Source: a virus
DNA length: 38,332 bases
Direction: 5' to 3' (one strand)
IMG/VR virus record: IMGVR_UViG_3300025137_000102
Location: 1 to 38,332 of that record
A program made the position numbers and the translations under genes. Of the stretch, positions 4,604-36,207 are shown piece by piece. The number at the start of each line of letters is the position of its first letter. Within the stretch, counting starts at the first letter, position 1. The notes under the pieces were generated by a model that had not been told where the DNA came from, made no database searches, and worked only from the letters and a program-made list of their open reading frames with translations.

Positions 4604-7600
4604 TGGCAACTCTTGTTGAAGAACAGAGCATAGATAGCTTACCTAGTCTTACTCCTGAAGAAGCGAAGAAGAAAGGTATTGTAGACTATTTTGATAAAAC
4701 GAAACAAGAGGGTGCTGCCGATGAAAAAGGTACTTTACGTATTAGAATAGACGCTGATAAAAAGTCAGATGAAGAAGAAGATATCAAAGAAACAAAATTT
4801 GTAGATGATACACAATTCGTTGCACCAGAAAAGAAAGATGTGATTGCTGTAAAGACAGTAGACAAGGAACAATCTGATGCCGAAAAGCCTGAAATAAAAT
4901 TAGAAGATAAATCAAAGTTTGTAAAAAAAGAATCTAAAGTTTTACAAGCATCTATGGCTAAAGACATTCTACCATCTCCAAAAGGTCTTGTAACACAAGG
5001 TAAAGCAGGACTACCAGAAGGAACATCTTTAGCTAAATCAGCAGAAGAAGATATACAAGAGAAACGAAAGGCATCAACTTTCGATGACTTTTTAACAAAA
5101 TTACAAAACAAAGAAGATATACCAGAATTATCTGACGACCTACGAAGTAAAATATATAATGTATATAGTTTATATAATAACCCTGCTTTACCTAAGTCTA
5201 AGAAAAAATATGAAACTATTTTAAAAAATGCTTTTAATTTATCTCAAAGAGGTAAAAAAGAAGAAGGTCCCGATATAGCTTTTGCAAGAGGTGTTAAAGT
5301 AAGACCATCAGCAGATAACTCTAATGCTGTTTTAAAAACTAAACAAGAGAGATACGCTGAAGGTAGAATAGAAGTTGCAAAGATAATAAATGGAACATTC
5401 AGTAAAATGAATGAAAAGTATCCTGATTTACAAATGAGTAGAAAAGATGAGATACGAGTAGAGCAGGCTATAATAGATAGAGTATCCACTGGTAACTTTT
5501 TTAATACCTTTATAGAAACCATGAGTGAAACACAAAGAGGTCTACTTCTTGATCTTCCTACATTTGCAGGAGAAGCATTTATTGCAGGTAATATAGCAAA
5601 AGACTTGCTTGATTCAGGACAAGACTTTACTCAAGCTTGGAGCAATTCTGCAGAAGCTAGAGAAAAATGGGCAAAGTCACACAAAGAAATATTTAATTAT
5701 ATAGGTGGTGAGTTACTTTCAGATCAAATAAATAATGTAATTATAGAAGAATTACAAAAGCAAGTTGGTCAACCCGGAGGTATAACTCAAGAAAGATTTA
5801 AAGAACTTACTGAAATAACTGATACATCAGGTAAAGTCGTAGGCAACAGAGAGTTTTTAAATAGAGAACAAGCAGATGAGTTATTGTTTGAAAGCATAGA
5901 TCAATTAGCTAAAAGTGAAAGATTCTTTTTAATATATCTAGAAAACATATTAGGCATGTCAACACTAGCCAAGCAATCAGGTGTGATTGGTAAAATGGCA
6001 GTAAAAAAGTTAGATAAAAAAGTTTCTAAAGTAGAAGCACAAAAACCTATCGATGCTTACGCAGGTATGTCTTTAAGACAAAAAGCTAAAGCCATGACAA
6101 GAGATGGAGAACAGATATCTATAAATGATAAGTACCTTAATATAGGTTTGGGTCAAGAAAAAATATCTAATACTTTAAATAGAATGAAGGTTGCAAAAGA
6201 TAATTTAATAAAAGAACGTAAAAAGTTTGCAAAAGGAACTTTAGAATATAAGAAGTTAACTAACGACATAAACACTGTGAGAGGAAAGCTATTTAGAAAC
6301 TATACCTACAGTCTAGGTGCATACCCTATATTTAGAGAGGGATTTGGAATATCAACTCCTGCAAGTATATCACAATTTGTTGTTGCAGAAATGTTAGGAA
6401 CAGGGGATGATGCTACTTTTGATTTTTATAACGCACAAGCTTTAGGTGCAGTAGCTTACGCATTAGGTGGTAAAACTCTTGCAAAAGGAACTTTTAATAT
6501 TGTATCAGGAATAGGATCTATAGTCAGTGGAAAAGCTCCTACTGTAACTGGAGAAATGTCAAAATTACTTGCAGCATCAGGGTCAATAGTTGGCGTTCCA
6601 AGACAATTTTTTATAGATGGAAACATACTAAAATATGAAAACTTTTTAAAAGGGCAAGGTAAAACTTTAGATAGGAAGCAAAGATCAGCAATACAGTACG
6701 TATTTAAGTTAGCTGAAAAAATGAGTGAAGAAAATTTAGATCTTGTTCTGGACTCAATCACTGAATTTTCACAAATAGAAGCAAGAATAATAAAATCTGT
6801 AGAAGGTGCAGGTGTACAAGAGAAAGTTAAAAACTCTCTTCAAACCACATTTGCATCTTTAACATCATTGGGATGGTTAAAGGGTGTTGAAAAAGGTGCA
6901 TCAGCGAACGTTGATATAAGAGACATGGCATCATTAAAAAATGTTGATGCAATAGTTGATTCTCAAATACAACAAGAAGAAGCATTGAAACTTGCTGACA
7001 GAGTAATAAATAATATGAAAGATACTATGTTAAAATCTGGAGTTGATTTTAATACAAACGAAGATGTTGGTAACATAATAAGAAAACTAGAATCCACTAT
7101 AAGACGAACTCAAGGTGAGTTAATTAAAGATAAAGTAAAAGCAAAAAATCTTGTAGACGATACTTTATCTGCAATTTTAAAAGATGAACGATCCGTAGAT
7201 TTTACAAGTACAGAGTTTAACACACTAGTATCTGCATCTCTTAGATTAGATATGAATATAAAGCCTGATTTAAACAGAGGTCAAGCCATAGAGAAAATAG
7301 CTAAAAGAATTAATGAAGCTCTTTTTGATCGTGTAGAAAGTATAAACGAAAATAAGTTTGATATTAACTACAAAAAAAATATGAACGTTTTGATTGAAGA
7401 TATGATAGAAGGTAGAATATTAAAATTTTATTCTACAGCTAAATTAGGTTACAAAGATTTTGATGAAGCGATGTTATCAGAAAATAAAACCGTAAATGTA
7501 TTGCCTTTGTTAAAAAGTCTTTATGCCAAGTCTGAAGAATTTACAACTAATAAGACTTCGTTGGGTAAATATTTTACTGCTCAAGGTAAATTTCTAAGCG

Positions 7601-9474
7601 GCCCTTTAGCTAATACGTTAAGAGCATCTATAAAAGAAATGGGTGTACGAACTTTAAGAAGTAAGTTTAGTAAATCAACGATAGAGAAACTTTTAACTTT
7701 ACACAGACAGCCAACTGTTAAAAATGCAGCAGGTGATACTGTAGAAAATACAAAATTTATATCTGAGGATGCTGATGAATTAGATTTAGCTATGTATTAT
7801 TCTGATTCTGAAGAAGATACGTTAGAAGCATTTTTAGCTTTACCTAGTGAAGTTATGGATCTGCAAGCAGCATTTAGAAATAACGCTTTCAGAACAAACA
7901 ATCCTGACCTTGCACGTGAAGTAAAAAGTTTTGAAACCGAGATAGATGACTTAATAAGAAGGTCAGCAGGTGATTTACAAAATATGCAACAAGACGCAAA
8001 GGATATATATAGATCAAACGTATTTGACAGGACAAGAGGAAATGGCCCTCTGACAGTCTACAACAAATCTAAAAGTGATGTCATACCTCTGTCAACCACA
8101 AAAGGAGAAAAAGCAACTACGGATACACGTGCTGTATTTGCTAAAGAAACACCTTCACAATTGTTTGACCCTTTAATAAAAGATATACAAAGCTATGTAA
8201 AAAATCCCACGAACCAATTAGAAAAAAGTATAATAAGACACAAGTCAAATATATTTACACAATTATCGGATAGAAAAAATTTTAATGAAGTTTTTGATTT
8301 AGATGATCCTGATTCAAAAAAAGCTTTTGATGTAATTAAAGAAGCTATAAACGGAAGCGTTTATACAAACTGGGGAGATTCTATAGTCAAGTCTATAGAA
8401 AGTATTAGTCCTAGAGCAAAAGTAGTTCTAGATGGTCAAAAGGGTGGATATAATTTTGATGATATAGATATTGATAAACTTAATGAATTAACAGAATTGA
8501 CTAGAGTTAAGGTAATAAGAAATGGAGAACCTGATACAGAACCTCTTATAGATTTTGCAAAACTAATTAGTGATCAAAAAGATATTGTCAGACAAATGAA
8601 AAGACATAAAGTTCTTCAAGATCAATACGCAAGATTTAAAACTAAAATAGATAACAGATTAAAAACAGCAGGAAGTGGTATAAGAGATAGTTTAGCTATT
8701 GAACAAGATTTTATAACAAGATTAAAGAAGATTGGTAAATTTACAGATTCAACTCAATTTTTTGATAGCTATGTAAAAAATGGAGACGTTTCAGGTATAC
8801 GACAACTAAAGTCCGATCTTATGAAACTTGGAGCAGAAAATTTAGATATTTACGAAAAACAAGTGGATGCTGTTATAACGAAACAAGTCATAGAGGGTTT
8901 ATTATCTCTTGGTGAAAGAAAAATTGTACCAGATAAATTCATCACTAAAATAGATGGAAATAGAAGTTCAGTATTTGCCTATGAAAAACCAGAATTAATT
9001 CTTGAAGCTTTAGAAAATCCCCAAACAAGAGAAGTGATTGACGAGGTTATGAGTCAAGATCACATTGAAGATTTATCAGCGTTAATGAAATATTTAAGAA
9101 ATACATCAGGAGGAAAAGGTCAGTATTTAGATGCTGCACAACAACCTGCAGGTATGAGAAAAGCCGTGTTTACTATACAAGAAGCTCTAAGTAGAATATA
9201 CAACTTAGCTAGAGGAATGGTTAGTCCTGCGTATGTTGGTTCAGAGTTTGCTATAAGAGTATCACTAAACGCATCTATGGATATGGTAAAAATGGCAGCA
9301 GGAGATCCTGACGCTGCAAAAGTATTAAAGGATGTATTACTTTATCCTGAACAAATGGACAAAATAAAACTAGATGAATTTCGTATATTAATGACTGATT
9401 TTCTTGTAACAGAACTTGCTCGTTCTGATGCAAGAGAACTTCCATCTTACTTGGAAGAAAAATTTTTTGACTAA
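4603..9474 (+). CDS. Giant internal virion / DNA-ejection-type protein
   Basis: 1,623 residues, the largest gene in the window, TAATG-coupled to the previous one. The first about 180 residues are charged and probably disordered; the rest is helical. One Gly/Ala-rich hydrophobic stretch near residues 605-645 (ALGAVAYALGG, then IVSGIGSIVSG) could insert in a membrane. The last about 90 residues contain ARGMVSPAYVGSEFAIR followed by MVKMAAGDPDAAKVLKDVL, a C-terminal arrangement I associate with giant internal proteins of marine podoviruses. No transglycosylase signature was found. By size and place it is the likely counterpart of T7 gp16, helping DNA enter the host; this is inference. The gene is strongly AT-rich. 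Confidence 0.65.
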   Translation: MATLVEEQSIDSLPSLTPEEAKKKGIVDYFDKTKQEGAADEKGTLRIRIDADKKSDEEEDIKETKFVDDTQFVAPEKKDVIAVKTVDKEQSDAEKPEIKLEDKSKFVKKESKVLQASMAKDILPSPKGLVTQGKAGLPEGTSLAKSAEEDIQEKRKASTFDDFLTKLQNKEDIPELSDDLRSKIYNVYSLYNNPALPKSKKKYETILKNAFNLSQRGKKEEGPDIAFARGVKVRPSADNSNAVLKTKQERYAEGRIEVAKIINGTFSKMNEKYPDLQMSRKDEIRVEQAIIDRVSTGNFFNTFIETMSETQRGLLLDLPTFAGEAFIAGNIAKDLLDSGQDFTQAWSNSAEAREKWAKSHKEIFNYIGGELLSDQINNVIIEELQKQVGQPGGITQERFKELTEITDTSGKVVGNREFLNREQADELLFESIDQLAKSERFFLIYLENILGMSTLAKQSGVIGKMAVKKLDKKVSKVEAQKPIDAYAGMSLRQKAKAMTRDGEQISINDKYLNIGLGQEKISNTLNRMKVAKDNLIKERKKFAKGTLEYKKLTNDINTVRGKLFRNYTYSLGAYPIFREGFGISTPASISQFVVAEMLGTGDDATFDFYNAQALGAVAYALGGKTLAKGTFNIVSGIGSIVSGKAPTVTGEMSKLLAASGSIVGVPRQFFIDGNILKYENFLKGQGKTLDRKQRSAIQYVFKLAEKMSEENLDLVLDSITEFSQIEARIIKSVEGAGVQEKVKNSLQTTFASLTSLGWLKGVEKGASANVDIRDMASLKNVDAIVDSQIQQEEALKLADRVINNMKDTMLKSGVDFNTNEDVGNIIRKLESTIRRTQGELIKDKVKAKNLVDDTLSAILKDERSVDFTSTEFNTLVSASLRLDMNIKPDLNRGQAIEKIAKRINEALFDRVESINENKFDINYKKNMNVLIEDMIEGRILKFYSTAKLGYKDFDEAMLSENKTVNVLPLLKSLYAKSEEFTTNKTSLGKYFTAQGKFLSGPLANTLRASIKEMGVRTLRSKFSKSTIEKLLTLHRQPTVKNAAGDTVENTKFISEDADELDLAMYYSDSEEDTLEAFLALPSEVMDLQAAFRNNAFRTNNPDLAREVKSFETEIDDLIRRSAGDLQNMQQDAKDIYRSNVFDRTRGNGPLTVYNKSKSDVIPLSTTKGEKATTDTRAVFAKETPSQLFDPLIKDIQSYVKNPTNQLEKSIIRHKSNIFTQLSDRKNFNEVFDLDDPDSKKAFDVIKEAINGSVYTNWGDSIVKSIESISPRAKVVLDGQKGGYNFDDIDIDKLNELTELTRVKVIRNGEPDTEPLIDFAKLISDQKDIVRQMKRHKVLQDQYARFKTKIDNRLKTAGSGIRDSLAIEQDFITRLKKIGKFTDSTQFFDSYVKNGDVSGIRQLKSDLMKLGAENLDIYEKQVDAVITKQVIEGLLSLGERKIVPDKFITKIDGNRSSVFAYEKPELILEALENPQTREVIDEVMSQDHIEDLSALMKYLRNTSGGKGQYLDAAQQPAGMRKAVFTIQEALSRIYNLARGMVSPAYVGSEFAIRVSLNASMDMVKMAAGDPDAAKVLKDVLLYPEQMDKIKLDEFRILMTDFLVTELARSDARELPSYLEEKFFD

Positions 9475-15576: not shown

Positions 15577-17106
15577 TTACAGATCTACTTCAGATAAGTC
15601 AAGCCAATTCTTTCCTATTTTTAATTCGATGCCTACAGGCATGTCGTATTCTATGCCATACCTACGTTTCGTCTCACTTGGTAGACACAACATTGCTTCA
15701 GATAATACATCAATACACTGTTGCTTTTCGTTTGGATGAACATCAAGAACAATAGAATCGTGTACTGTGTTGCAAATAACTGACTCCATTTTCAGTTCTC
15801 TCATCTGTCTATCTAGCTCCACCAACGCAATAGGCAATAGATCAGCCGTAGCGAACCCCTGAACAGGGTAATTACAAATAGCAGTACGATTGGTAGCTGT
15901 ACCCCACTCTGTCCATCTAGCGTCAGGAAAACAGTATTCTCTTCCTGACGGTAATTTTATAATTTTTGTAGTCACGGCTTGCTTTTCAAGTTCTTTGTGC
16001 CACTCGCTTACCTGTTCATACTTCTCTTTAAATCTTTTGTAGTATGCCTGCTGACTTTGTGTACCACTGACACCTCCATACAACGGTTTGAATGTGTGTG
16101 CCTTTGCTTCCTGTCTAGAGCAGCCGATTATAGATGCAGTATAGCTATGTACATCTGTACCTTTCTTTACATCTTCATACACCTGACTATCTTTTGCAAG
16201 AAAGCCTGCCACTCTGAACTCCAACTGTGAGTAGTCACCCTCAAGTATAAACCCATCATCAAATCTACTTTCGACAACCTTACGTATGGCAAATGTAGAA
16301 CCACGTGGCATGTTCTGAAAGTTAGGATTACGACTAGATAGCCTACCTGTTGCTGTTACACATTGCATAAACTCAGGATGAATAAAATTATAGTCATCGA
16401 CATTGTTCTTCATTCCCTCTACAAAGGTAGACAGATAAGTACGCAAAGCATTGTATCGAACATAAGCTCCACAGAACTCACGTGCATCACCACTTAGTTC
16501 AGATAGTCTATCTTCTAATGTTACCTTGTCTGTCTTGAAACCTGCTGATGCTGTATCTCTTGGAGTACGAGGTATGAGCTTGAAACCTGCCACCTCGCCT
16601 GTAGATGTATAGACTACACCTTTGCCCTCACAAATTTTACATATTCGTTTAGCTTTACCGACACTACCATCTTTCTTGAGAGGTGTTATCCTACCTGATC
16701 CACGACAAGTCTCACATTGACGACCTACTGTTTTGTAAACTATGTCAGTCATACGCCTTACATATTGTACAAAGTCTTTGTTCTTCATACGTGTTCGTAG
16801 TTTAGGCTTGATTGTATTGCCACGCATCTCATGTCCAAGATTAAATGTGAGTGACCACAAAGATTTATCTTTTACCTTTCGTGAGTAAAGCAACACACTC
16901 TTGTCATCAGGACTTGCAAGATTGATAGGAGTATCTCCCATTGCGTTCTTGGCTAGTCTGTTCAGCTTAGTTTCCAACATGGTCATCTCCTCCATGTATT
17001 GTTTTTCAATTTGTTCTAAGGTATCTGTGTTTATCTTTAGTCCGTTGTGTTCTATCCTAGATAGCGTGTTCGTCATCTCGAACGACAGTTTTAGTGTTTG
17101 TTTCAT
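15577..17106 (-). CDS. polA: Family A DNA polymerase, polymerase domain only
   Basis: 509 residues, with a GAGGA ribosome site five bases before the ATG. Motif A is GDYSQLEFR (Asp291); motif B is R331-x3-K335-x3-F339-x3-Y343-G; motif C is VHDS (His449, Asp450, with Ser in place of the usual Glu). TATGRLSS (251-258), NPNFQNMP and YPVQGFATAD are also typical. The residue equivalent to E. coli Phe762 is Phe339. There is no exonuclease domain; that is the preceding gene, overlapping by 50 bases. Between residues 131 and 163 lie two C-x2-C-x-G-x-G motifs (CETCRGSG, CKICEGKG), a DnaJ-like zinc module inserted in the N-terminal region. It copies the phage genome in the same operon as helicase and primase. 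Confidence 0.95.
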   Translation of the reverse strand: MKQTLKLSFEMTNTLSRIEHNGLKINTDTLEQIEKQYMEEMTMLETKLNRLAKNAMGDTPINLASPDDKSVLLYSRKVKDKSLWSLTFNLGHEMRGNTIKPKLRTRMKNKDFVQYVRRMTDIVYKTVGRQCETCRGSGRITPLKKDGSVGKAKRICKICEGKGVVYTSTGEVAGFKLIPRTPRDTASAGFKTDKVTLEDRLSELSGDAREFCGAYVRYNALRTYLSTFVEGMKNNVDDYNFIHPEFMQCVTATGRLSSRNPNFQNMPRGSTFAIRKVVESRFDDGFILEGDYSQLEFRVAGFLAKDSQVYEDVKKGTDVHSYTASIIGCSRQEAKAHTFKPLYGGVSGTQSQQAYYKRFKEKYEQVSEWHKELEKQAVTTKIIKLPSGREYCFPDARWTEWGTATNRTAICNYPVQGFATADLLPIALVELDRQMRELKMESVICNTVHDSIVLDVHPNEKQQCIDVLSEAMLCLPSETKRRYGIEYDMPVGIELKIGKNWLDLSEVDL

Positions 17107-17653
17107 ATAATTCCTCGAATGTTAAGCCAAAGGCTTCTAGTTGTTTTACTGCAACCTGTTCAGTTGCGACTACATCGGCAATGCCGTATTCTTCTACTAT
17201 CTCTGCAGGTATGTCATAAAATGTCTTACCATCTTTGAGATACGGTTTAACTAAGTCTACTTCTTTTTGAGTAACCTCATATCGTTTTGCAAGAGACTCA
17301 AGTGACAAAGACCAACGCCTACCTTTTGATCTTAGGTATTCTGCCACCATCGTATCGTACAGAACTCCATCGTAAGTAAAGCCACATGATCGCAACCATG
17401 TTATGTCGAACTTTATATTTTGTCCAATCAGAACATCTGCCTTGTCCAAATCTTTTTGTATCAAATTTACAATATCTGACTCATAATTGTACTCACTATC
17501 TTTGTGATAGAAAAACTTATAGTTAACGTGATCGTTTAACAACCACTTCCAACCTATTGATACTAATCGGTTATTGAAGTAGGGCAACGCAGTAGTACCC
17601 CCACCCTCTTTGTCTCTATGTGTAGTTTCTACATCTAAAGTTAACACGTTCAT
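17057..17653 (-). CDS. 3'-5' proofreading exonuclease (DnaQ/PolA-exo fold), separate gene
   Basis: 198 residues from the ATG at 17653, which forms TAATG with the helicase stop and has AGGGGGA ten bases upstream; the frame runs further 5' but only inside the helicase gene. Exo I is LTLDVETT (Asp7, Glu9), Exo II is GQNIKFDITWLR (Asp83) and Exo III is YGIAD (Tyr156, Asp160), so all catalytic acids are present. It probably proofreads for the polymerase encoded next to it and may assemble with it, since together they make a whole PolA-type enzyme split into two polypeptides. Confidence 0.92.
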   Translation of the reverse strand: MNVLTLDVETTHRDKEGGGTTALPYFNNRLVSIGWKWLLNDHVNYKFFYHKDSEYNYESDIVNLIQKDLDKADVLIGQNIKFDITWLRSCGFTYDGVLYDTMVAEYLRSKGRRWSLSLESLAKRYEVTQKEVDLVKPYLKDGKTFYDIPAEIVEEYGIADVVATEQVAVKQLEAFGLTFEELYETNTKTVVRDDEHAI

Positions 17654-18879
17654 TAATAATATATCCCCCTTGAAATATCTATTTGGGCATTGATCATACC
17701 ATGCCACCCATTGATCTTGTTCTTAGATATACAGATGTGTCTTACTATGTTATCTATCTCACTCGATCCTGTCTTGCCTATACCTATAATGATATCAGCT
17801 TCACCTGCCTTGCCTGTCTTGGAATTGTCAAGCATGGCATAATCAATAAACTGTCTGTCGTGAGCATCGTAACTTGCTTGGCTTACTGCCCACACAAGAC
17901 ACAGATTTCGTTTAGCTATCTCTCTTGCAGACACATAAGTTTCCTTCAAACGTTCATCTCCACGATTGTACTCACCACGTATTCTGAATTTGTCTAGCTG
18001 ATCACAGAACATGACATCAGGTTTGTTCAGCTTGGCATACTCATCTACCTCTTCTACAGATGTACCCACCGAATCCATGATAGTCAGGTACGGTTCTATC
18101 TCTGTCTTGTATCTATCTAGGAGACTAAACCTCTGTGCTACCATCTCCTCCTTTGTCAGTTCAAAGTATGATTGAATGATACGTAACTTGATTCGCTTGG
18201 CAGGTTCTTCGTTTGCCCAATACACAACCTGAAATCCTTGACGTATGTACGATGATGCAAGAAAGCAACAGAACGTTGTCTTACCCACTTCAGGTCTTGC
18301 AAACAAGATACCTAAGTTACCACGATCTAAACCTTTGATGTTCTCATTTATTAAGTTGAATGTGAATGGGAAATCATTGTCACCTGCTTCTTCAGATAAC
18401 AGTTCGTTTAAATCTTTGTCAACAATAGTGTAGGTTGTTTTGTCACCTATCCTACCATCATCTACACTTTCGATAAGTTTCTTTAACTCACCGAACTCAT
18501 CACTGTCACCAGTGAATATGTCTAATGCTTTCTCTCCTATCTGTCTAGCTTTGTCTCGCAGCCAAAGGTTGTTTACAATGTCAGTATGTAACTCATCGCT
18601 TTCTTTTGGTGCAATGAGTTTTACAATCATATCCTGTACACGATTCCTAGCTGAATCAGGCATGGCAGGATTACGATCATTGAATATTGTAGACAGTTCA
18701 GGAACAGACAGACTACGATCATACTTGGTATGTGAATAGACTATCGTATCGAATATATCTTTTAATTCATTGTCGAACATAGTCCGATCAATTTTATTTT
18801 TTACTTTGTTGAAGAAATCAATATTGAGACAAAAACCTAGTACTTGTCTGTCAATCGATATAACGCCTGATGAACTCAT
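17653..18879 (-). CDS. DnaB-family replicative helicase
   Basis: 408 residues, with AAGGGGA six bases before the ATG. The N-terminal about 150 residues are helical like a DnaB N-domain (primase-interacting); the RecA-like C-terminal domain has Walker A ARPEVGKTT (Lys200, Thr201), the catalytic Glu region WANEEPAKRI, Walker B-like PDVMFCDQL (Asp293), SQAS, and a C-terminal basic segment ISKNKINGWHG. It forms a hexamer that unwinds DNA ahead of the polymerase. The primase is a separate upstream gene overlapping by 29 bases, unlike T7 gp4, where the two domains are fused. Confidence 0.92.
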   Translation of the reverse strand: MSSSGVISIDRQVLGFCLNIDFFNKVKNKIDRTMFDNELKDIFDTIVYSHTKYDRSLSVPELSTIFNDRNPAMPDSARNRVQDMIVKLIAPKESDELHTDIVNNLWLRDKARQIGEKALDIFTGDSDEFGELKKLIESVDDGRIGDKTTYTIVDKDLNELLSEEAGDNDFPFTFNLINENIKGLDRGNLGILFARPEVGKTTFCCFLASSYIRQGFQVVYWANEEPAKRIKLRIIQSYFELTKEEMVAQRFSLLDRYKTEIEPYLTIMDSVGTSVEEVDEYAKLNKPDVMFCDQLDKFRIRGEYNRGDERLKETYVSAREIAKRNLCLVWAVSQASYDAHDRQFIDYAMLDNSKTGKAGEADIIIGIGKTGSSEIDNIVRHICISKNKINGWHGMINAQIDISRGIYY

Positions 18880-26642: not shown

Positions 26643-26662
26643 TACTTTTATACCTCCAAGTT

Positions 26663-26701
26663 AAAGCACTTTAGATTAGCGTCTAAGGTGCTTTTTCTTT
26701 T
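26663..26701 (+). terminator. Rho-independent terminator closing the early block
   Basis: AAAGCACTTTAGA pairs with TCTAAGGTGCTTT over 13 base pairs (one G-U), with a six-base loop (ttagcg), followed by TTTTTCTTTT. It is the strongest hairpin of the region and isolates the early block from the terminase operon. Confidence 0.9.
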
Positions 26702-27044
26702 AAACCTCTGATATATCCTTAAATGATTGTTTTGTTTACGTATTCGCCTTAAATGGTGTTTGGCGTATTGCTCGCAATAGTAACATCAAAAGTAAACCTT
26801 TGACTGTAACTTATACAACTTACTAATGACAAATCGTCTTACGTGGCGTGTATGTGTGTGTGATGTATGCAATTATATTGCTGATTGCATTTAAGTTTAG
26901 CGTTTGTCTTGTCTGCCTATGGTTATGTGTTCTTGGAGAGGTCAGAATGTCAACAAAAATATACCTATTGCGTGTACGCACGCATGGGACACTGGGGGTG
27001 GGGTAGTATTGGCATGCAATGTCGCCATATTTTTACTAGAATGA

Positions 27045-27062
27045 GTTACTTGTACAGGTAAC
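27045..27062. promoter_or_regulatory. 18-base palindrome, candidate operator
   Basis: GTTACTTGTACAGGTAAC reads the same on the other strand at 16 of 18 positions. Its half-site (A-C-A-R-GTAAC) resembles that of the palindrome at 27197-27216, suggesting two sites for one dimeric regulator about 150 bases apart. Confidence 0.45.
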
Positions 27063-27178
27063 GGTGCATCCCTTTGGGATAGCGTATAGGGGAGAGGGGG
27101 GTATGGTGTATTTCCCCGGAGGTTATACTCCGATTGTATCCATCAATTGCTATTCTGTCAATAAAATAATTATTTTTC

Positions 27179-27207
27179 TTGACGTATTCGTGCTAAGTAC
27201 CTATTAT
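27179..27207 (+). promoter_or_regulatory. Sigma70-like promoter for the terminase/late operon
   Basis: TTGACG (27179-27184), a 17-base spacer and TATTAT (27202-27207), five of six matches in each box. The first gene starts about 110 bases downstream. No phage RNA polymerase was found, so host polymerase probably uses this to start late transcription. Confidence 0.7.
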
Positions 27208-27213
27208 ATAGGT
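27199..27213 (+). promoter_or_regulatory. Operator-like palindrome over the late -10 box
   Basis: ACCTAT-tat-ATAGGT is a perfect six-base inverted repeat that covers the -10 box of the promoter above. A protein bound here would block initiation, a usual arrangement for delaying late expression. Confidence 0.5.
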
Positions 27214-27316
27214 AACAAAGTATCATTTAAAGCACATGCAACCAAACATATCTCATAACAATAGTGTATTTGGCTTTATTTGTTTGATCCTTTGTTCAAT
27301 TTATTAAGGAAACCCC

Positions 27317-27908: not shown

Positions 27909-28014
27909 GTGGTGGCAGTTTCTTTTGGTCACTATGGTATCAATTAACACAACGATTAACCTGATAGTGTTCTTTAGAGGTAGAAAAGTATTCAAAAAAG
28001 CAAATGACAGATAA
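27898..28014 (+). CDS. 38-residue membrane micro-protein between terS and terL (holin-like candidate)
   Basis: ATG at 27898, stop at 28012-28014; it overlaps terS by 11 bases and terL by 11 bases, exactly bridging the two. The product starts MEIEWWQFLLVTMVSINTTI, continues with a hydrophobic NLIVFF and ends in a basic tail (RGRKVFKKANDR). One membrane helix, short N-terminus and positive C-terminus suit a small holin or similar lysis protein. T7-like phages keep holin and spanin genes around the terminase genes, which supports this, but the assignment is inference. The ribosome site is weak, so coupling is likely. Confidence 0.5.
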   Translation: MEIEWWQFLLVTMVSINTTINLIVFFRGRKVFKKANDR

Positions 28015-29692
28015 TGCACCCAAACGTGGTCGCCCAAAGAAAGACCCTAACGCACCCAAACAAAGATACAACTATTCATCTGCAATAAAAGCACGTAAAC
28101 AGACACAACGCAGACTTACTGAAGCAAAGAAACGAGCAAAGAAAGTAACGATACAAGCAGAAAGCAAAAGACGTTACGCACGTAAGCTCGAAGAAAAGAT
28201 AACCAAAGTAGATAAGGCACTGAACAGCAATGAAACTACCGTCATCGATAAACAAGATTTACAAGAGCTTCCAGATGTTGTTGAGCAACTGGTGGATGGG
28301 CGTGAAATTATTTTTCAGCCGAATGAAGGACCTCAAGAAGAGTTTCTATCCTCAAGCGAAAGAGATGTTCTTTACGGTGGCTCGGCAGGTGGGGGAAAAA
28401 GTTTTGCACTTCTCGCAGACCCCTTACGGTATTGCCACAATAGCAACCATCGTGGGCTTCTTCTTAGGCGTACTCTGGATGAGCTAACAGAACTTATAGA
28501 TAAATCAAGGCAACTGTATCCCAAAGCTTTCCCCGGTGCAAAGTTCCGGGAGTCAAAGTCAACGTGGCACTTTCCGTCAGGTGCAACAATATGGTTTACC
28601 TATCTAGACAAAGATAAAGACGTAACAAGATTTCAGGGTCAGTCGTTTAACTGGATAGGCATAGATGAGATAACTCAATACCCCTCGCCTTATGTTTGGG
28701 ATTATCTCCGTTCACGACTTAGAGCAACTGATCCTGAACTGCAAAAGCATCTGTACATGCGTTGTACAGCGAACCCCGGAGGAGTCGGAGGGTGGTGGGT
28801 CAAGAAGATGTATATCGATCCATCTGAACACAACTCGACTTTTCCTGCAATGGATATTGAAACAGGCAGAGCCTTTGTGTGGCCGCAAGGACACGAAAAA
28901 GCAGGTGAGCCACTTTTCTATCGTAGGTTTATACCTGCACGTTTGACTGACAATCCATACTTGTTGGCTGACGGACAATACGAAGCGATGCTACGATCCC
29001 TACCTGAAGTTGAACGTAAGCGACTTCTTGAGGGTGACTGGGAAGTAACGGAAGGTGCAGCCTTTCCTGAATTTAGTAGAGGTAAACATGTGGTCCCGAA
29101 TTTTGACCTTCCACCAAATTTCCCAAGAATACGTGCAGCTGACTATGGGTATGCAAGTCCTTCTTGTGTCCTGTGGGGTGCTATTGACTGGGATAACAAT
29201 ATATGGGTTTATCGTGAACTGTATGTAAAACAGTTGACAGCAGAGCAACTAGCTGATAGAATACTACAAGTAGAACAAGAAGATCCGACTCCCCACTATA
29301 CAGTACTCGATTCATCGTGTTGGAACAAGACAGGCTTTGGTCCTTCCATAGCAGAGACAATGATGAGATGTGGAGTGCGTTGGATGCCATCGGACAGAAA
29401 CCGACTTCAAGGTAAAATGGAAATACATCGTAGGCTTGCCGATGACCCTCGAACAGACGAACCTAGAATACGAATATTTCCGAACTGTGTCAACCTCATC
29501 AAACAACTATCAGGTATACCTCTTAGCAAAACAAATGCAGAAGATGTGGACACAAAGGCAGAAGATCACGCATACGATGCACTGCGATATATGTTAATGA
29601 CAAGGATGACAGGATATGTGTCGATTCATAAAACGCTTGGTGGCATTAAGAGTCAGGTCTTTCAGATGCAAGATCAAACATTTGGATATTAA
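28004..29692 (+). CDS. terL: Terminase large subunit
   Basis: 562 residues. The ATPase domain has Walker A GGSAGGGKS (Lys132) and Walker B WIGIDEIT (Asp221, catalytic Glu222), with the coupling motif TANPGG at 255-260. The nuclease domain has Asp380 (AADYGY), Asp436 (TVLDSS) and Asp521/Asp525 (DHAYDAL). It pumps DNA into the procapsid and cuts it at the genome ends. The first about 100 residues are an unusual basic extension with an AT-hook-like KRGRPKK (residues 7-13) and Arg/Lys-rich helices. The start overlaps the micro-gene by 11 bases. Confidence 0.95.
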   Translation: MTDNAPKRGRPKKDPNAPKQRYNYSSAIKARKQTQRRLTEAKKRAKKVTIQAESKRRYARKLEEKITKVDKALNSNETTVIDKQDLQELPDVVEQLVDGREIIFQPNEGPQEEFLSSSERDVLYGGSAGGGKSFALLADPLRYCHNSNHRGLLLRRTLDELTELIDKSRQLYPKAFPGAKFRESKSTWHFPSGATIWFTYLDKDKDVTRFQGQSFNWIGIDEITQYPSPYVWDYLRSRLRATDPELQKHLYMRCTANPGGVGGWWVKKMYIDPSEHNSTFPAMDIETGRAFVWPQGHEKAGEPLFYRRFIPARLTDNPYLLADGQYEAMLRSLPEVERKRLLEGDWEVTEGAAFPEFSRGKHVVPNFDLPPNFPRIRAADYGYASPSCVLWGAIDWDNNIWVYRELYVKQLTAEQLADRILQVEQEDPTPHYTVLDSSCWNKTGFGPSIAETMMRCGVRWMPSDRNRLQGKMEIHRRLADDPRTDEPRIRIFPNCVNLIKQLSGIPLSKTNAEDVDTKAEDHAYDALRYMLMTRMTGYVSIHKTLGGIKSQVFQMQDQTFGY

Positions 29693-29695
29693 TAA

Positions 29696-31333
29696 ATGGC
29701 AGAGATAACAAAAGACTCTACGCTTAGAGAAGTTTTACAATACTATGCTGATAAAAATAAAAGAAAAGATGCTTTTGTTACAGAGGGTGTAAAACTTTTT
29801 AAAGATATAGCAGATGAAAAAGGTTCAGCCGTAAAACTTTTTACACCTGATAAAACAGGAAAAACTTTATTAGCAAAAACACTCCCTAACATCCCTGAAG
29901 AAATTGGTCTTAAACAACCAATGCAAAATATTAGACAAGTTGGATTAATTCTAAAAGGAATTATTTCTCCTGATGACAAACTTTTAGAAACTCTACCTGA
30001 CGCTTCTTCAAATTCAGAAAAAAATCTAAGGGTGTTTGGAATAGAAGAACCTGCAAAAGCAAAATCTCTTGTCACAATACGAGTTAACTCCGATACGATG
30101 AATGATTTTTTTAGTCAAATACATTCATTTAAAAAAGATAAAAAATCTGAAGCTATAGCTGACGCAGTATTATTTAATTTAAATACAGGCTTGCGACCTA
30201 ATGCTGCAGCAGGATTAAAAGTTGGAGGAACTTATTTTCCTGAAAATGGTGCTATCTACATAGACGCAGAAACTAAAGGTGCAAAAGGTAGAAGAATAAA
30301 TGTTCCGTTAAGTCCTCTTGCTGATTCTATATTACAAAAAAGAATAGCAGATAATAAAGTAAAAGATAATTATTTTTTTGTAAAACCAGATGGAAAACCT
30401 GTCACATCATCTGACATGACTTCACTTCTCAAAAAAATTAAAATAAAAGATTTTGTTTTTGATGCAAGTACAAATAAATACTATGATAGTCTAGCTCCTG
30501 AAGGTAAAGATGTACCCGGAAAAAGGGGATCAAGTTTACTAAGAAACATACATACTAAAATAGGACAAAAGGCAGGAATACCGTTTGAGAGAATAGCATA
30601 CTTACAAGGTCGAAGTCTTGTATCAGCAGCACAAGGTTCAGTAGGAGAAATTGTAAGCTACGCTACTGATTTTCCGGGAGACATAGATCCTAAAGGTTTT
30701 GACGCACAAAAAGCAAATCAAATAAGTTCTATATTTGAACCATCTGTTAAAAAATTAAAATATAATTTGTCAGGCACACAAGCAAGAATAACGTCTAATA
30801 CAAAAGGATTTGAAAATTATTTTGACGCACCTGTTTTAGATAAAGTAGATGAATCACCTTCGTCTAAAATGATTGCCACTGAAAATGATGTACTAGCTAC
30901 CACACAAGAAATAAACAGCTTTGCAGATTTTACGCAAGAAGAATTAGATGAGCTTGAAGCAGGAGGTATAACTTCTGCTAAAAAAGAAGCAGAAAGCATA
31001 ACATCAAAACTTAAAAAAATTGGAACAACAATAGTTGACAAGGGATCAAAAGCCATAGCAGGAGCTATTGGTGTTGAAGCTGCAAGACAGTTATTTACAG
31101 AACCTGCCGCCTTTGCAAAAGAAGTAGCAGTAGAGACAGCACTAGAAAAAGGACTAGGAACAGGTCCGGGTGCTTTTGTAGGTTTTGCTTTATCTCCAAC
31201 AGAGATGGGTAAAGCTACTTTAGATGATTCTCCTGACGGAGAATATACGACAATACCTCTTGAACAAAACGTCATGAAGCCTGACGACATTCAAGGGGGA
31301 TTTATAAATCAAAATCAAACAGGGAGACAATAA
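29696..31333 (+). CDS. Tyrosine-recombinase-like protein with long C-terminal extension
   Basis: 545 residues, three bases after terL and TAATG-coupled to the next gene. Residues about 125-330 resemble the catalytic domain of tyrosine recombinases: first Arg167 in LNTGLRPNAAAGL, a beta-hairpin with Lys194/Lys197 (AETKGAKGRRINVPLS), second Arg283 in SLLRNIHTKIGQKAGIP, and a candidate Tyr322 (IVSYATD). The box II His is Ser280 and the usual LGH is QGR, so it is divergent and perhaps inactive. Residues about 360-545 are an extra Ala/Gly-rich tail. No attachment site, excisionase or immunity gene is adjacent. It may be a real integrase displaced into the late operon or a virion protein built on this fold. 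Confidence 0.7.
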   Translation: MAEITKDSTLREVLQYYADKNKRKDAFVTEGVKLFKDIADEKGSAVKLFTPDKTGKTLLAKTLPNIPEEIGLKQPMQNIRQVGLILKGIISPDDKLLETLPDASSNSEKNLRVFGIEEPAKAKSLVTIRVNSDTMNDFFSQIHSFKKDKKSEAIADAVLFNLNTGLRPNAAAGLKVGGTYFPENGAIYIDAETKGAKGRRINVPLSPLADSILQKRIADNKVKDNYFFVKPDGKPVTSSDMTSLLKKIKIKDFVFDASTNKYYDSLAPEGKDVPGKRGSSLLRNIHTKIGQKAGIPFERIAYLQGRSLVSAAQGSVGEIVSYATDFPGDIDPKGFDAQKANQISSIFEPSVKKLKYNLSGTQARITSNTKGFENYFDAPVLDKVDESPSSKMIATENDVLATTQEINSFADFTQEELDELEAGGITSAKKEAESITSKLKKIGTTIVDKGSKAIAGAIGVEAARQLFTEPAAFAKEVAVETALEKGLGTGPGAFVGFALSPTEMGKATLDDSPDGEYTTIPLEQNVMKPDDIQGGFINQNQTGRQ

Positions 31334-31548
31334 TGGCACAAAACATGAATCAAGGTGCAGCTTATATTATGGGTTCAGATAAGACATCAGTTGATGATGC
31401 AATGGGTTCAGATCAGCTACACAGAGAAGGTCTTGAATTTTCAACAGAAGTAACTCAAGATGTTCTACAAATGGATATGCCAAAGAAGCAAACAAAACCT
31501 ACTGTTGAAGCTTCTTTATTTTCTATGGCTGAACAAAGAGACTACTAA
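31333..31548 (+). CDS. Small hypothetical late protein
   Basis: 71 residues, TAATG-coupled to the recombinase-like gene. Met/Asp/Ser-rich, without hydrophobic core or motif (MAQNMNQGAAYIMGSDKTS at the start, SLFSMAEQRDY at the end). Placed directly before the portal gene; a small virion or assembly factor is possible, but no family is recognised. Confidence 0.55.
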   Translation: MAQNMNQGAAYIMGSDKTSVDDAMGSDQLHREGLEFSTEVTQDVLQMDMPKKQTKPTVEASLFSMAEQRDY

Positions 31549-31567: not shown

Positions 31568-33691
31568 ATGGCTGATGAAAGTTTTCTTCAACCTGATGAC
31601 GACACTCCTGTATCTATTGAAAATCCACAAGAGCAAATGCCCGGATTGGCAGGATACGTCAAATCTAAATTTGAAGATTCAGAGAACGGCAGACGTTCTC
31701 ACGAACTAAAGTGGTTACAGTCTTATAAAAACTTTAAAGGTATTTACGATTCTACAACTCAGTATCGTGACTCCGAAAGATCAAAAGTATTTATTAAGAT
31801 AACTAAAACTAAAGTTCTTGCTGCGTATGGACAGATAGTGGATATACTTTTTAGTAACAAAAAGTTTCCACTTGTTGTAGAACCTACTCCTATGCCTGAA
31901 GGCATCGAGGAGTTTGCTCACATGAAAACTCCAGTAGACGAAGCTGAACAACCAGTTGATCCATTTGGTTTTGAAGGAGATGGTAGAGAGTTACCTCCCG
32001 GAGCTATGTCGGCTCGTGAACCACACAAGTTAGGAACGTACGGTAATGATTTTCCTGACATGTTGGCATCAGGACCTGCAAAGATGGGTGAGCCACAAGT
32101 TAAACCTGCACAGAAGATGGCTATGAATATGGAGAAGTGTATTCACGATCAACTTATGGACAGTAACGCAGTCAACGTATTTCGTAAAGCTATATTTGAA
32201 TCAGCACTACTTGGAACAGGCATAGTCAAAGGTCCGTTAAACTTTTACAAACGTGTTCACAACTGGCAGATGAATCCTGATACTGGGCAAAAAGAATACA
32301 GTCCGTATGAAAAGATAATGCCACGTATAGAATATGTATCTCTGTGGGATTTTCATCCTGATCCATCTGCGACAAGCATTGAAGATTGTGAGTACGTGAT
32401 ACAAAGACATCGTATGAACCGTCAACAACTTCGTGGTCTAATTAAGCGACCATACTTTGATGCGTCAGCTATTGAAGAGTGTCTTACTAAAGGTCCTAAC
32501 TACGAAGATAAATATTACGAAGATACTATTCGTGAGGATGATACTGAACCTTACTACCAAGAGAACAGATACGAAGTTCTTGAGTATTGGGGTGTCATAG
32601 ATAAAAAACTTGCAAACGAAGTTGGCATGGAAAACTCCAACGAGATGTCAGAGTTTGATCAGCTACAAGTCAATGTATGGGTATGTGGTGGTATGGTTAT
32701 CAGATGTGTAATGAACCCATTCACACCTGCAAGAATACCTTTCCAAGCTTTTCCATTTGAGATAGATCCTTATCAAATATGGGGTGTCGGTGTTGCAGAG
32801 AATATGGAATACTCACAAAAGCTAATGAACGGTCATTATCGTATGGCTATTGATAACTTAGCACTAGCAGGTAATCTTGTGTTTGACGTAGACGAAGCAA
32901 GCTTAGTCCCCGGTCAGAATATGGATATATTCCCCGGTAAGATATTTAGACGACAGTCAGGTGTAACAGGAACAGCAATCAACGGATTAAAGTTTCCAAA
33001 CACTGCACCAGAGAACATACAGATGTATCAGATATCACGACAACTTGCTGATGAAGATACAGGTATACCATCAATATTACACGGACAAACAGGTGTAACA
33101 GGAACTGGTAGAACCGCTGCAGGACTATCCATGTTGATGGGTTCAGCAGGACTGGCAATGAAAACAGTCATAAAGAATATAGATGATCATTTACTAAAAC
33201 CATTGGGCGAGTCTTTGTTTCAATGGAACATGCAGTTCAACGATGATCTAGGAGAGATAAAAGGGGATCTAGAAATAAAACCTCGTGGGGTTGCAGCAGT
33301 TATGCAAAAAGAAGTGCGTACACAAAGATTAACTGCCTTGCTTCAAACCGTATCTAACCCAATGCTTGCACCTTTCATAAAGATACCAAACTTAATAAGA
33401 GAACTTGCAATAGCACAGGATATTGATCCTGATACGTTAGTCAACGATGCCAACGAAGCACAACTATACGCTGAAATGTTAAAAGGAATGATGGCTAATG
33501 TACAACAAGGAACAGGCGAGGATGCTGTCGCCACTAATCAACAGCAAGGAATGGGTCAACCTAGTGGAGTACCTCAACAGCCTGAAGGAACTGACAGTCA
33601 AGGGTCTGGTAACGGCACAATCGGAGTCGGAGCTACGCCAACTGCAGGGGAAACTGGCTTTACTGGAAATGCTCCTAGAGTTGAAGAATAA
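31568..33691 (+). CDS. Portal protein (P22-like)
   Basis: 707 residues, with TTAGGA seven bases upstream. It forms the ring at the capsid vertex through which DNA enters and leaves. Typical portal features are KVFIKITKTKVLAAYGQIVD near residue 80, FESALLGTGIVKGP, YVSLWDFHPDPSATSIED, QAFPFEIDPYQIWGVGVAE, and the stem/crown part with QTGVTGTGRTAAGLSMLMG. The C-terminal about 65 residues are low complexity (Gln, Gly, Pro, Thr) and are encoded by DNA that also carries another gene in a second frame. Gene order, terminase then portal then scaffold and capsid, is standard. Confidence 0.92.
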   Translation: MADESFLQPDDDTPVSIENPQEQMPGLAGYVKSKFEDSENGRRSHELKWLQSYKNFKGIYDSTTQYRDSERSKVFIKITKTKVLAAYGQIVDILFSNKKFPLVVEPTPMPEGIEEFAHMKTPVDEAEQPVDPFGFEGDGRELPPGAMSAREPHKLGTYGNDFPDMLASGPAKMGEPQVKPAQKMAMNMEKCIHDQLMDSNAVNVFRKAIFESALLGTGIVKGPLNFYKRVHNWQMNPDTGQKEYSPYEKIMPRIEYVSLWDFHPDPSATSIEDCEYVIQRHRMNRQQLRGLIKRPYFDASAIEECLTKGPNYEDKYYEDTIREDDTEPYYQENRYEVLEYWGVIDKKLANEVGMENSNEMSEFDQLQVNVWVCGGMVIRCVMNPFTPARIPFQAFPFEIDPYQIWGVGVAENMEYSQKLMNGHYRMAIDNLALAGNLVFDVDEASLVPGQNMDIFPGKIFRRQSGVTGTAINGLKFPNTAPENIQMYQISRQLADEDTGIPSILHGQTGVTGTGRTAAGLSMLMGSAGLAMKTVIKNIDDHLLKPLGESLFQWNMQFNDDLGEIKGDLEIKPRGVAAVMQKEVRTQRLTALLQTVSNPMLAPFIKIPNLIRELAIAQDIDPDTLVNDANEAQLYAEMLKGMMANVQQGTGEDAVATNQQQGMGQPSGVPQQPEGTDSQGSGNGTIGVGATPTAGETGFTGNAPRVEE

Positions 33692-33719
33692 TCACGAAAG
33701 AATAATTAAGAATGTCTGA
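33498..33719 (+). CDS. Small helical protein overlapping the portal gene 3' end
   Basis: 73 residues read in another frame, starting with ATG at 33498, with AAAAGGA about eleven bases upstream, overlapping the portal by 194 bases and the next gene by eight. The product looks like a real helical protein, not a shadow: KEWVNLVEYLNSLKELTVKG, then SESELRQLQGKLALLEMLLE. The E-L-R-x-L-Q-G-K/R-L pattern is typical of small phage proteins encoded next to portals and scaffolds. The portal frame over the same DNA is low complexity, as expected when the other frame is constrained. Function unknown. Confidence 0.65.
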   Translation: MYNKEQARMLSPLINSKEWVNLVEYLNSLKELTVKGLVTAQSESELRQLQGKLALLEMLLELKNNHERIIKNV

Positions 33720-36207
33720 CATTTTTGACTTTGCATTTGACTACGGTCTTACTTACTTTGAGCCACCTTCAGAGAAGAAGGATATGTTATCAAAGGAACA
33801 ATACAGTAAAGGCAATGTTGATTTCTACGAGCAAAGTTTAGATGACACTTTAGGAACTGGCATATCTCTCAAATTTAAAAATGACGATGATGAAGATGAT
33901 AAAAAAGACGATGTAAATGTAAATGTTGTAGGTGGTTCAGGAGAAGATCAATCAACCTTGTCGTTTTCTGAAATGGAATCTGTGTATGATAAAGGTCAAA
34001 TTAGTTCTGCAAATATATACGACATGAGTATAGGAACTTATGGAGATGCACTATCAAAAGCAGGATTTGCTGATAAAACACCATTTAATGTTTTTGGACA
34101 AGATATATATACAGCAGGTGTACCAAAGACAGCAGCAGAAGCAAAGAAAGGACTTGAAAGATTTGTATCAAAAGAAAGTCTAGTAAATAAAGGTGTTAAG
34201 ACAGGAGCTAGACTGCTAGGTATGAATCCTATGATAACGAGTGTAGCTATGGGTTTTGCAAACGGTAAAACAGTAGAAGATCCGTTAGGCAATCCAAGCT
34301 TTAGACCTAATCACTTTGCGTTGGGTGCTATTCACGATATAAATATGTCTATACAATATGACAACATAAGTGCTATACAGGCATCATTACGAGATCCAAA
34401 GACTGATACTAGAGGATTTGCTCAATACATAGGTGGTCAACTTGTATCACGGGCCCCGGGTGAGTTTGCTTACAGTGGCACTGGTGCAATAGGATTAAGC
34501 CAAGAAGAATTACAAAGAATAGATGCTTTGTCAAAGGGCATTGTTCCGAGTACATACGATTACAAAACTGAAACTGGAACAGCAGGAACACCTACAGGAA
34601 AAGGTGGTATGTATGATGATAGGGGTAGATATCACGATATAAATGGAACGTATGGTATGGGACCTCGTTCAGCATCAGAAGCTATAGGTAAAAGTACAGG
34701 ACTTGGAACTGAAAAGATAGAAGCCATATTAGCTGATGTAAGATCGGATAAAACAAAAAATTTAAATGTAGAAATAGCAAAGGCACAAGCTGCAAACTTT
34801 GCTGAAGCACAGAGAAAACAAAGAGAAGAAGTAGAAAGACAAATACGAGAGGAAGAAGCTAATACAAGTATTCCTGATGATTATGGTGTTACAGATAATA
34901 TATATTCAAACTTTCAAGATACAACTCCTCAAGTAGATTATAACACCTACTACGATAATAATGACAGTGACAACAATGATAGTCCGGGAGGAGGAGGTAG
35001 CTCTGGTGGTGATTCATCCGACATGGGATTCTCTACACGATACGGTGGGCAGATAGGACAAAAGTTTGCATTGGGTGGTAGAGGTGAAGTTGAACCTGCA
35101 GGTTTTATTGAAGGTCCTCCAGAAAAGTTTAGTGATCAAACAACCATTGCAGATGATATACCCCTAGAAGTTAAAGATGGTACTTTTGTTATAAATGCTC
35201 CTGCCGTAGAGTATGCAGGATCAGATGATATTAGCGAAATGTTAACAAAGGCGTATGAAAAAGTAGGACAAAGTATTGACAAATCTGGGCAAAGTACTAC
35301 AATACCAAGTAGAGAACAAATTAATATAATGATCTCAAGAGGTGAGGTCGTAGTTCCTCCTCAAATAGCAAAGATCATAGGGTATGATCGTCTAGAAAAA
35401 ATAAACAATCGTGGTAAAAAAGAAGTTACCAGACGACAGAAGCAAGGTAATCAAGAAAAGCCACAAGCTAGACAAGCTAGACAAGGTGGTGTAATAACCT
35501 TAGACGATATAAAATACAAAGAACGTTATTCAACTCCTAGTAAAGCCAGACAAGAAACAGAAAAAATATTACGATCTTTACCTTTAGCTGATGCTTTATC
35601 AATTATGATGTACGAAGAAGCAAACGTTTTAGGAGATAAAGGTTTAGAAGGTGTGGCTCACGTGTTTGTTAACAGAGCAGATGCTGAAGGTTACAAAGAT
35701 TTTGGCAACTCTTTAATTAATGAACTTACAAAAAGAACGTACACCAAAGATAAAATATTTCAATTCAATGCCCTTGAACCAACTAAATTTAGAAATACTT
35801 TAAAAATATTTAAAAAGAACAAGAACAAATATTTGAAAATACGTAATATAGCAGAAGAAGTTATCGCAGGTGCTAGAAAAGATTTTACAAAAGGAGCTTT
35901 GTTTTTTAAAAATCCAACATCATCAGGTGCAAAAGATTTTAAAAAGAAAGTAGATTCTGGAGAGTATGTAGAAACAGACAGAAGTAAAAAGGTACAGGGT
36001 GTTTTTCAACATATATACTACAGACCTAAAGACTTTGGTTTTGTAACACAACCTTTACCTAAAACAGAGACAGGAATACCAGAAGGTTTTATAGAAATAC
36101 CAGAACGTAAAAGTCAAACTAAACCAAGAATACCTGAATCAAAGGGTGGATCATTTCTGTTTAGAGGAAGTGATTATGAAAAAGGTGGAGCAACACCTGC
36201 TTTTTAA
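33712..36207 (+). CDS. Virion-associated protein with C-terminal SleB-like cell-wall hydrolase domain
   Basis: 831 residues. Residues 1-440 are unrecognised, partly disordered (acidic run near 57-67, Gly/Ser/Asp-rich stretch 410-440), with a helical segment near 350-385. Residues about 445-575 carry a module I associate with marine phages: FALGGRGEVEPAGFIEGPP, ADDIPLEVKDGTFVINAPAV, MISRGEVVVPPQIAKIIGYD and KINNRGKKEV. Residues about 622-770 match SleB/Hydrolase_2: MMYEEANVLGDKGLEGVAHV (Glu635/Glu636 as likely catalytic acid), FVNRAD, FQFNAL, GALFFKNP and VFQHIYY. Cell-wall cleavage during DNA entry or lysis is likely. The hydrolase part is more AT-rich than the middle, hinting at later addition. 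Confidence 0.75.
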   Translation: MSDIFDFAFDYGLTYFEPPSEKKDMLSKEQYSKGNVDFYEQSLDDTLGTGISLKFKNDDDEDDKKDDVNVNVVGGSGEDQSTLSFSEMESVYDKGQISSANIYDMSIGTYGDALSKAGFADKTPFNVFGQDIYTAGVPKTAAEAKKGLERFVSKESLVNKGVKTGARLLGMNPMITSVAMGFANGKTVEDPLGNPSFRPNHFALGAIHDINMSIQYDNISAIQASLRDPKTDTRGFAQYIGGQLVSRAPGEFAYSGTGAIGLSQEELQRIDALSKGIVPSTYDYKTETGTAGTPTGKGGMYDDRGRYHDINGTYGMGPRSASEAIGKSTGLGTEKIEAILADVRSDKTKNLNVEIAKAQAANFAEAQRKQREEVERQIREEEANTSIPDDYGVTDNIYSNFQDTTPQVDYNTYYDNNDSDNNDSPGGGGSSGGDSSDMGFSTRYGGQIGQKFALGGRGEVEPAGFIEGPPEKFSDQTTIADDIPLEVKDGTFVINAPAVEYAGSDDISEMLTKAYEKVGQSIDKSGQSTTIPSREQINIMISRGEVVVPPQIAKIIGYDRLEKINNRGKKEVTRRQKQGNQEKPQARQARQGGVITLDDIKYKERYSTPSKARQETEKILRSLPLADALSIMMYEEANVLGDKGLEGVAHVFVNRADAEGYKDFGNSLINELTKRTYTKDKIFQFNALEPTKFRNTLKIFKKNKNKYLKIRNIAEEVIAGARKDFTKGALFFKNPTSSGAKDFKKKVDSGEYVETDRSKKVQGVFQHIYYRPKDFGFVTQPLPKTETGIPEGFIEIPERKSQTKPRIPESKGGSFLFRGSDYEKGGATPAF

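Follow-up and report, generated by a model that had tools for sequence, protein, structure and literature searches.

A predicted tyrosine recombinase fixed in the late operon of uncultured marine phages, with swapped alleles and a possible place in the virion

Phage tyrosine recombinases (YRs) are usually regarded as early enzymes with a partner attachment site. Which function, then, could a recombinase-like gene have between the genes for the large terminase subunit (terL) and the portal protein? The stretch of DNA analysed here (the window; a 38.3-kb virus record, which is incomplete) encodes such an ORF of 545 codons, whose ATG start lies 3 bases past terL (the terL stop ends at 29692). The sequence TAATG at 31331–31335 couples it to a 71-aa ORF, and the portal gene then starts at 31568 (Table 1). 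These coordinates agree with an earlier sequence-only reading, in which the gene was described as packed between terL and a TAATG-coupled gene before the portal, and was taken as either an unusual late-expressed recombinase or a fold reused as a virion protein. The 71-aa protein contains the conserved stretches YNYGAAYIM and MPKKQTKPTVEAS and matches no family. A further ORF of 73 aa (33498–33719), read in a different frame, overlaps the portal gene at its 3' end and is 67–97% identical in five relatives.

Table 1. Features of the recombinase gene and its flanks in the window.
Feature	Coordinates	Strand	Basis
Late-operon YR gene, 545 aa	29696..31333	+	ORF; PF00589; PHROG_216/PHROG_1 integrase; AF2 with Foldseek/VIA
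N-terminal helical core-binding-like domain, residues 1–125, including Thr9	29696..30070	+	AF2; VIA match from residue 4 onwards (lambda Int/Tn1549 Int)
Catalytic domain, about residues 126–355	30071..30760	+	Structure matches, class alignment
Catalytic codon R167	30194–30196	+
Catalytic codon K197	30284–30286	+
Catalytic codon R283	30542–30544	+
Catalytic codon R306	30611–30613	+
Catalytic codon Y322	30659–30661	+
Disordered, exchangeable C-terminal tail, residues 380–545	30833..31330	+	pLDDT <50; same tail on different L009 core
GGFI short C-terminal motif, residues 534–537, proposed docking/packaging signal	31295..31306	+	Motif enrichment
71-aa gene, TAATG-coupled, conserved companion ahead of portal	31333..31548	+
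Terminase large subunit (terL), upstream flank	28004..29692	+	PF03237, PHROG_979
SU10-type portal, downstream flank	31568..33691	+	PF23899, PHROG_332, PHROG_1216
831-aa modular late protein, C-terminal cell-wall hydrolase	33712..36207	+	PF07486 just below cut-off

The ORF almost certainly encodes a genuine tyrosine recombinase, which is predicted to be catalytically competent. Residues 140–251 match PF00589 (E=4.6e-6; score 27.0 bits, just under the 27.1-bit cut-off), and the protein is matched by the integrase profiles PHROG_216 and PHROG_1 (E=6e-9 and 8e-9, respectively). A sequence-profile search against solved structures gave nothing significant, and the fold match thus comes from structure only. 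AlphaFold2, with 25 relatives as input, modelled residues 1–380 mostly at pLDDT 75–97, with a low-confidence loop (residues 310–323) around Tyr322 and a disordered tail at about 380–545 (pLDDT <50). As compared by Foldseek and VIA, the model resembles Tn1549 Int, XerH, lambda Int and archaeal Xer across both the core-binding and the catalytic domains (Foldseek: 6emy, E=6e-6, and XerH, 4e-5; VIA: Z 12–13.8, with matches spanning residues 4–312 and beyond). The model of L074, an MGH-type allele of a very divergent class, yields the same structural neighbours, and hhalign relates the window and L074 classes (E 4.5e-7), pairing the arginines of one with those of the other. The recombinase call made from the letters is thus borne out by a fold containing both domains of the superfamily, with lambda Int among its structural matches. 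Within the N-terminal domain, Thr9 is near-invariant (63/64 YR alleles).

The residues named in the sequence-only reading (R167, K194/K197, R283 and Y322) are found at these positions in the 545-aa translation, as are S280 in place of the box-II histidine and QGR in place of LGH. R167 and R283 are the sole invariant columns of the entire protein over 63 distinct alleles, while K197 is kept in 56/61 rows of the family-wide alignment. All 61 distinct proteins of the window class carry R167, K197 and R283 (61/61 each), and the rows reaching the column have R306 in 60/60 and Y322 in 57/57, so that the two arginines and the tyrosine are conserved in close homologues; in the family-wide alignment the H and Tyr of the GH classes are out of register, and the tyrosine was therefore assessed without it. 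As to the two lysines put forward as candidates, K197 is the likelier catalytic residue, since K194 occurs in only 52/61 members of this class. S280 is variable within the window class, and the box-II histidine is absent throughout the family; GH is present in 26/63 alleles, and classes other than that of the window contain MGH or LGH followed by Tyr, where the window class has QGR (R306). Both histidine positions vary among known active tyrosine recombinases, and assignment to the superfamily thus rests on the fold and the other residues: the two catalytic arginines, the lysine and the tyrosine nucleophile are present, while the window class has neither the box-II histidine (HxxR) nor H/W in the LGH box. 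By sequence conservation, the set R-K-R-[R/H]-Y comprises the best conserved residues of the protein.

The missing box-II histidine and the altered LGH box would suit a catalytically dead YR fold acting as a DNA-binding regulator or virion protein, for which the SPbeta repressor MrpR, a YR-fold repressor without recombinase function, is a precedent (PMC10516654), and the VIA list for the model also includes the YR-fold SroF-Sar complex. MrpR, however, is without most of the catalytic residues, whereas the R-K-R-[R/H]-Y residues are the best conserved here, and this explanation is scarcely credible. The earlier suggestion of a fold reused as a virion protein, if read as a loss of catalysis, is likewise disfavoured, since conservation is highest at the active site and the remainder of the protein is hypervariable.

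The position of the gene is fixed. Among 80 portal relatives, all readable terL-portal intervals (1.8–2.3 kb) hold one YR-family ORF of 529–702 aa, and nearly always also one ORF of ~72 aa. An out-of-sample scan that started from a distant portal yielded 27 further distinct contigs, all of which (27/27) hold a YR-family ORF as judged by the family HMM (551–790 aa), with R167 and R283 in 27/27 and K197 in 26/27; across close relatives, the family is thus represented by one gene of 529–790 aa per readable interval. When the recombinase itself was used for the search, the order terL-YR-portal was present in 77/77 new loci of the window class (57 complete, 20 cut on one side by a contig edge), and the placement is thus not due to chance. 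No empty terL-portal site was found in the clade among the readable intervals examined. In this clade the YR gene is an obligatory late gene lying between terL and portal, and the late-expressed recombinase proposed from the sequence gains support from the fold, the invariance of R/K/R/[R or H]/Y and the fixed late-operon placement. Pfam detects only 27/63 alleles at E 0.01; calling such phages recombinase-free therefore depends on profile sensitivity.

The window is a fragment of an HMO-2011-type phage and belongs to an isolate-free clade of uncultured marine phages. As compared with HMO-2011-type isolates, its TerL is 46–57% and its portal about 42–51% identical, with about 50% for the nearest isolate portals, and it shares with the HMO-2011 group a DNA polymerase with a DnaJ-type motif, a primase, a helicase and a ribonucleotide reductase. 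The DNA polymerase, one gene in HMO-2011, is split here into overlapping exonuclease and polymerase ORFs (15577–17106 and 17057–17707, minus strand), a split kept in 4/5 long relatives, with the fifth record ending there. Among 50,697 records of phage isolates, tblastn with five alleles found no YR relatives. HMO-2011 and CRP-2 have an empty terL-portal interval, while in the other isolates examined it contains small genes or others (e.g., a GDSL hydrolase); among the isolates examined, no annotated recombinase lies in this interval. HMO-2011 and CRP-3 contain an ordinary int gene upstream of the replication module, and subgroups IV–X have no identifiable lysogeny genes according to Zhang et al. 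(PMC9038755).

Whole recombinase alleles are swapped among near-identical phages, which is the most surprising property of the YR gene and lay beyond the reach of the first reading. YR identity is uncoupled from portal identity (Spearman 0.08), as compared with 0.73 for TerL and 0.40 for the ~72 aa neighbour. Where portals are ≥97% identical (27 pairs), the YRs are <35% identical in 81%, as exemplified by L074/L075 (portal 99.7%, YR 13%) and by L023 and the window (portal 98.7%, YR 20%). Purifying selection acts on each allele type, as within-type YR cores show dN of 0.05–0.43 and dS of 0.6–2.4 in pairs with enough change (0.08 and 0.69, respectively, for the window and L002), and this, together with the uncoupling from the portal, marks them as old alleles exchanged on one backbone rather than decaying genes.

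The extra C-terminal region had been described as an Ala/Gly-rich tail; a tail is indeed present at about residues 380–545, but its enrichment is mild (Ala/Gly 21%; 31% in residues 430–500). In L009 the tail of the window is joined to a different YR core, which shows that the tail is exchangeable. The motif [GSN]F[ILVM] is found in the last 30 aa of 57/64 YR alleles, mostly 4–18 residues from the end, compared with 17/231 ORFs of the background set and 3.6% of internal windows; it also ends 21/27 new alleles and, again above background, 29/61 proteins of the 831-aa type, which are encoded past the portal. A longer homology between the YR tail and the tail of the 831-aa protein was considered and rejected (best E 2e-5 against 8e-5 for the reversed-sequence control). 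The last 25 aa of the YR correlate with the portal (Mantel 0.18, p=0.001) but not with the YR core (0.03, n.s.), whereas the first 25 aa follow the core (0.32), though they lie only a few nucleotides from terL. The tail end thus seems to track the virion backbone instead of the recombinase core; the effect is small and could in part arise from linkage to the flank downstream, a possible alternative which is weakened by the control with the first 25 aa. This tracking is the best indirect sign that the YR end may meet a backbone-encoded partner and, together with the end motif, lends indirect support to the tail as a putative packaging or ejection signal, as proposed at the outset.

Many alleles at one locus with conserved flanks would also be expected from a selfish, homing-like exchange, in which the YR or the cassette containing it would displace the resident allele of co-infecting phages and so spread, and free-standing homing endonuclease genes occur near boundaries of inter-phage genetic exchange, according to one study (PMC10448857). 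A parasite, however, should be missing in some members, and the clade offers no empty site, while the C-terminal end seems adapted to the backbone. Such an origin of the allele variety is very unlikely.

A Cre-/Xer-like resolvase acting late on multimers or concatemers would stay in the producing cell and resolve replicated DNA for the terminase encoded by the neighbouring gene. The YR gene adjoins terL in the same late operon, the active site is intact, and the same role has been proposed for the YR gp143 of phage phiCbK (PMC3556154). This function, however, does not explain the free exchange of YRs among near-identical genomes, which would require the resolution site to move as well, nor does it explain a tail end that follows the portal. 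Synonymous constraint revealed no conserved core recombination site inside the YR gene, with a slight excess at codons 2–18 in the window class, and type-specific DNA words common to phages of the same type were fewer than in the control (71 vs 112). A resolvase confined to the producing cell is regarded as unlikely. A non-coding stretch of 674 nt (26643–27316) is located upstream of the small terminase gene; an 18-nt inverted repeat near terS (26658–26702), followed by T-rich DNA, was considered as a candidate target and set aside, as it looks terminator-like.

The sequence-only reading had also stated that there was no room for an attachment site, which holds for the adjoining gaps (3 nt and about 20 nt), although a site could lie elsewhere or within a gene. 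An oddly placed temperate integrase, whose alleles differ in host site and whose attP lies elsewhere or within a coding sequence, would agree with the integrase-family profiles matched by the YR, and swapping of alleles could alter the site used. HMO-2011-type relatives carry int genes elsewhere, and CRP-3 integrates at tRNA-Met (PMC6918029); no second PF00589 gene was found in 14 long clade records, in 4/14 of which the YR itself matches. However, the gene is in the late operon in every locus examined, tRNA-like attP matches in the window, an incomplete record, are not above chance (4 vs 4.0 expected), and no portal relatives were found in GTDB species genomes (one genome per species, contigs >3 kb), in which prophage sampling is shallow. 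The tail and its end motif are likewise unexplained by integration, and a temperate integrase is considered improbable.

We tentatively favour an active YR which is made late, docked by its tail into the virion, ejected, and acting on DNA early in infection. The enzyme would be made together with the virion proteins, and its tail would dock it to the virion or to a packaging component via the end motif; it would then enter the capsid, be ejected along with the genome, and make and reseal Tyr-linked breaks as infection begins, perhaps in order to circularise or resolve the incoming genome or to recombine at a host site. The variety of alleles might reflect shifting DNA targets or a conflict with hosts or competitors, alongside other hypervariable late genes. 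Somewhat more tentatively still, these phages may represent a class that ships a strand-exchange enzyme, virion-packaged and ejected, in dozens of interchangeable alleles on one backbone. A large group of uncultured marine phage contigs (at least 600 matches in the portal searches) has the YR as an obligatory late gene, with a frozen active site inside a sequence swapped wholesale among near-identical phages. If carried in virions, the YR would represent a new class of ejected phage enzyme; otherwise, its alleles would provide a rich natural recombinase series for studies of DNA-specificity diversification.

When the phages were compared gene by gene, the remaining strongly variable genes likewise proved to be late (1486–2037, 2600–4603, 4603–9474 and 33712–36207). 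The first three, encoding proteins of 183, 667 and 1623 aa, respectively, are 22–53% identical where TerL and portal are 97–99% identical, and have no family match except a weak SidD_C in the 1623-aa protein; from their order or position and their size, they may encode ejection proteins. The fourth belongs to the 831-aa late protein family (window 33712–36207; L043:5441–8665; L009:5209–7527), which carries variable C-terminal cargo, i.e. PF07486 (cell-wall hydrolase) in the window, ART-PolyVal (a weak match) with Hydrolase_2 in L043, and an ART-like stretch in L009 that was recognised by eye and has no Pfam match. This family is provisionally identified as polyvalent-protein-like.

The YR is assigned by sequence and model to the tyrosine recombinase superfamily, and its late-operon, tail-bearing and multi-allelic form was not found described in a limited set of open-access papers. 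It has in common with Tn1549 Int, XerH and lambda Int (PF00589) the core-binding and catalytic fold and the R-K-R-[H/R]-Y set, but differs from them in lacking the box-II histidine, in having QGR for LGH in the window class, and in its long disordered tail, late-operon location and extreme allelic replacement. The integrase of HMO-2011 and CRP-3, from the same phage group, is also a tyrosine recombinase; unlike the late-operon YR, it is 292–357 aa in length and encoded by an early gene near the replication module, and hhalign gave no significant match between the two. Likewise a tyrosine recombinase, phiCbK gp143 belongs to a phage not known as temperate, contains 208 aa with little beyond the catalytic core and no N-terminal domain, and is discussed together with DNA replication genes (PMC3556154). 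MrpR (YopR), the SPbeta master repressor, resembles the late-operon YR as a phage-encoded YR fold with weak sequence similarity to recombinases, but has lost most catalytic residues, which the late-operon family keeps (PMC10516654). A survey of polyvalent proteins makes no mention of recombinases or integrases (PMC5512222). As compared with ejected effectors, the YR is encoded in the late operon, and its end motif, a putative encapsidation signal, occurs above background in both the YR (57/64) and the 831-aa family (29/61); T4 Alt, the P1 Dar proteins and N4 vRNAP are enzymes similarly encoded among virion genes, for which delivery with the DNA has been proposed, as it is here for the YR.
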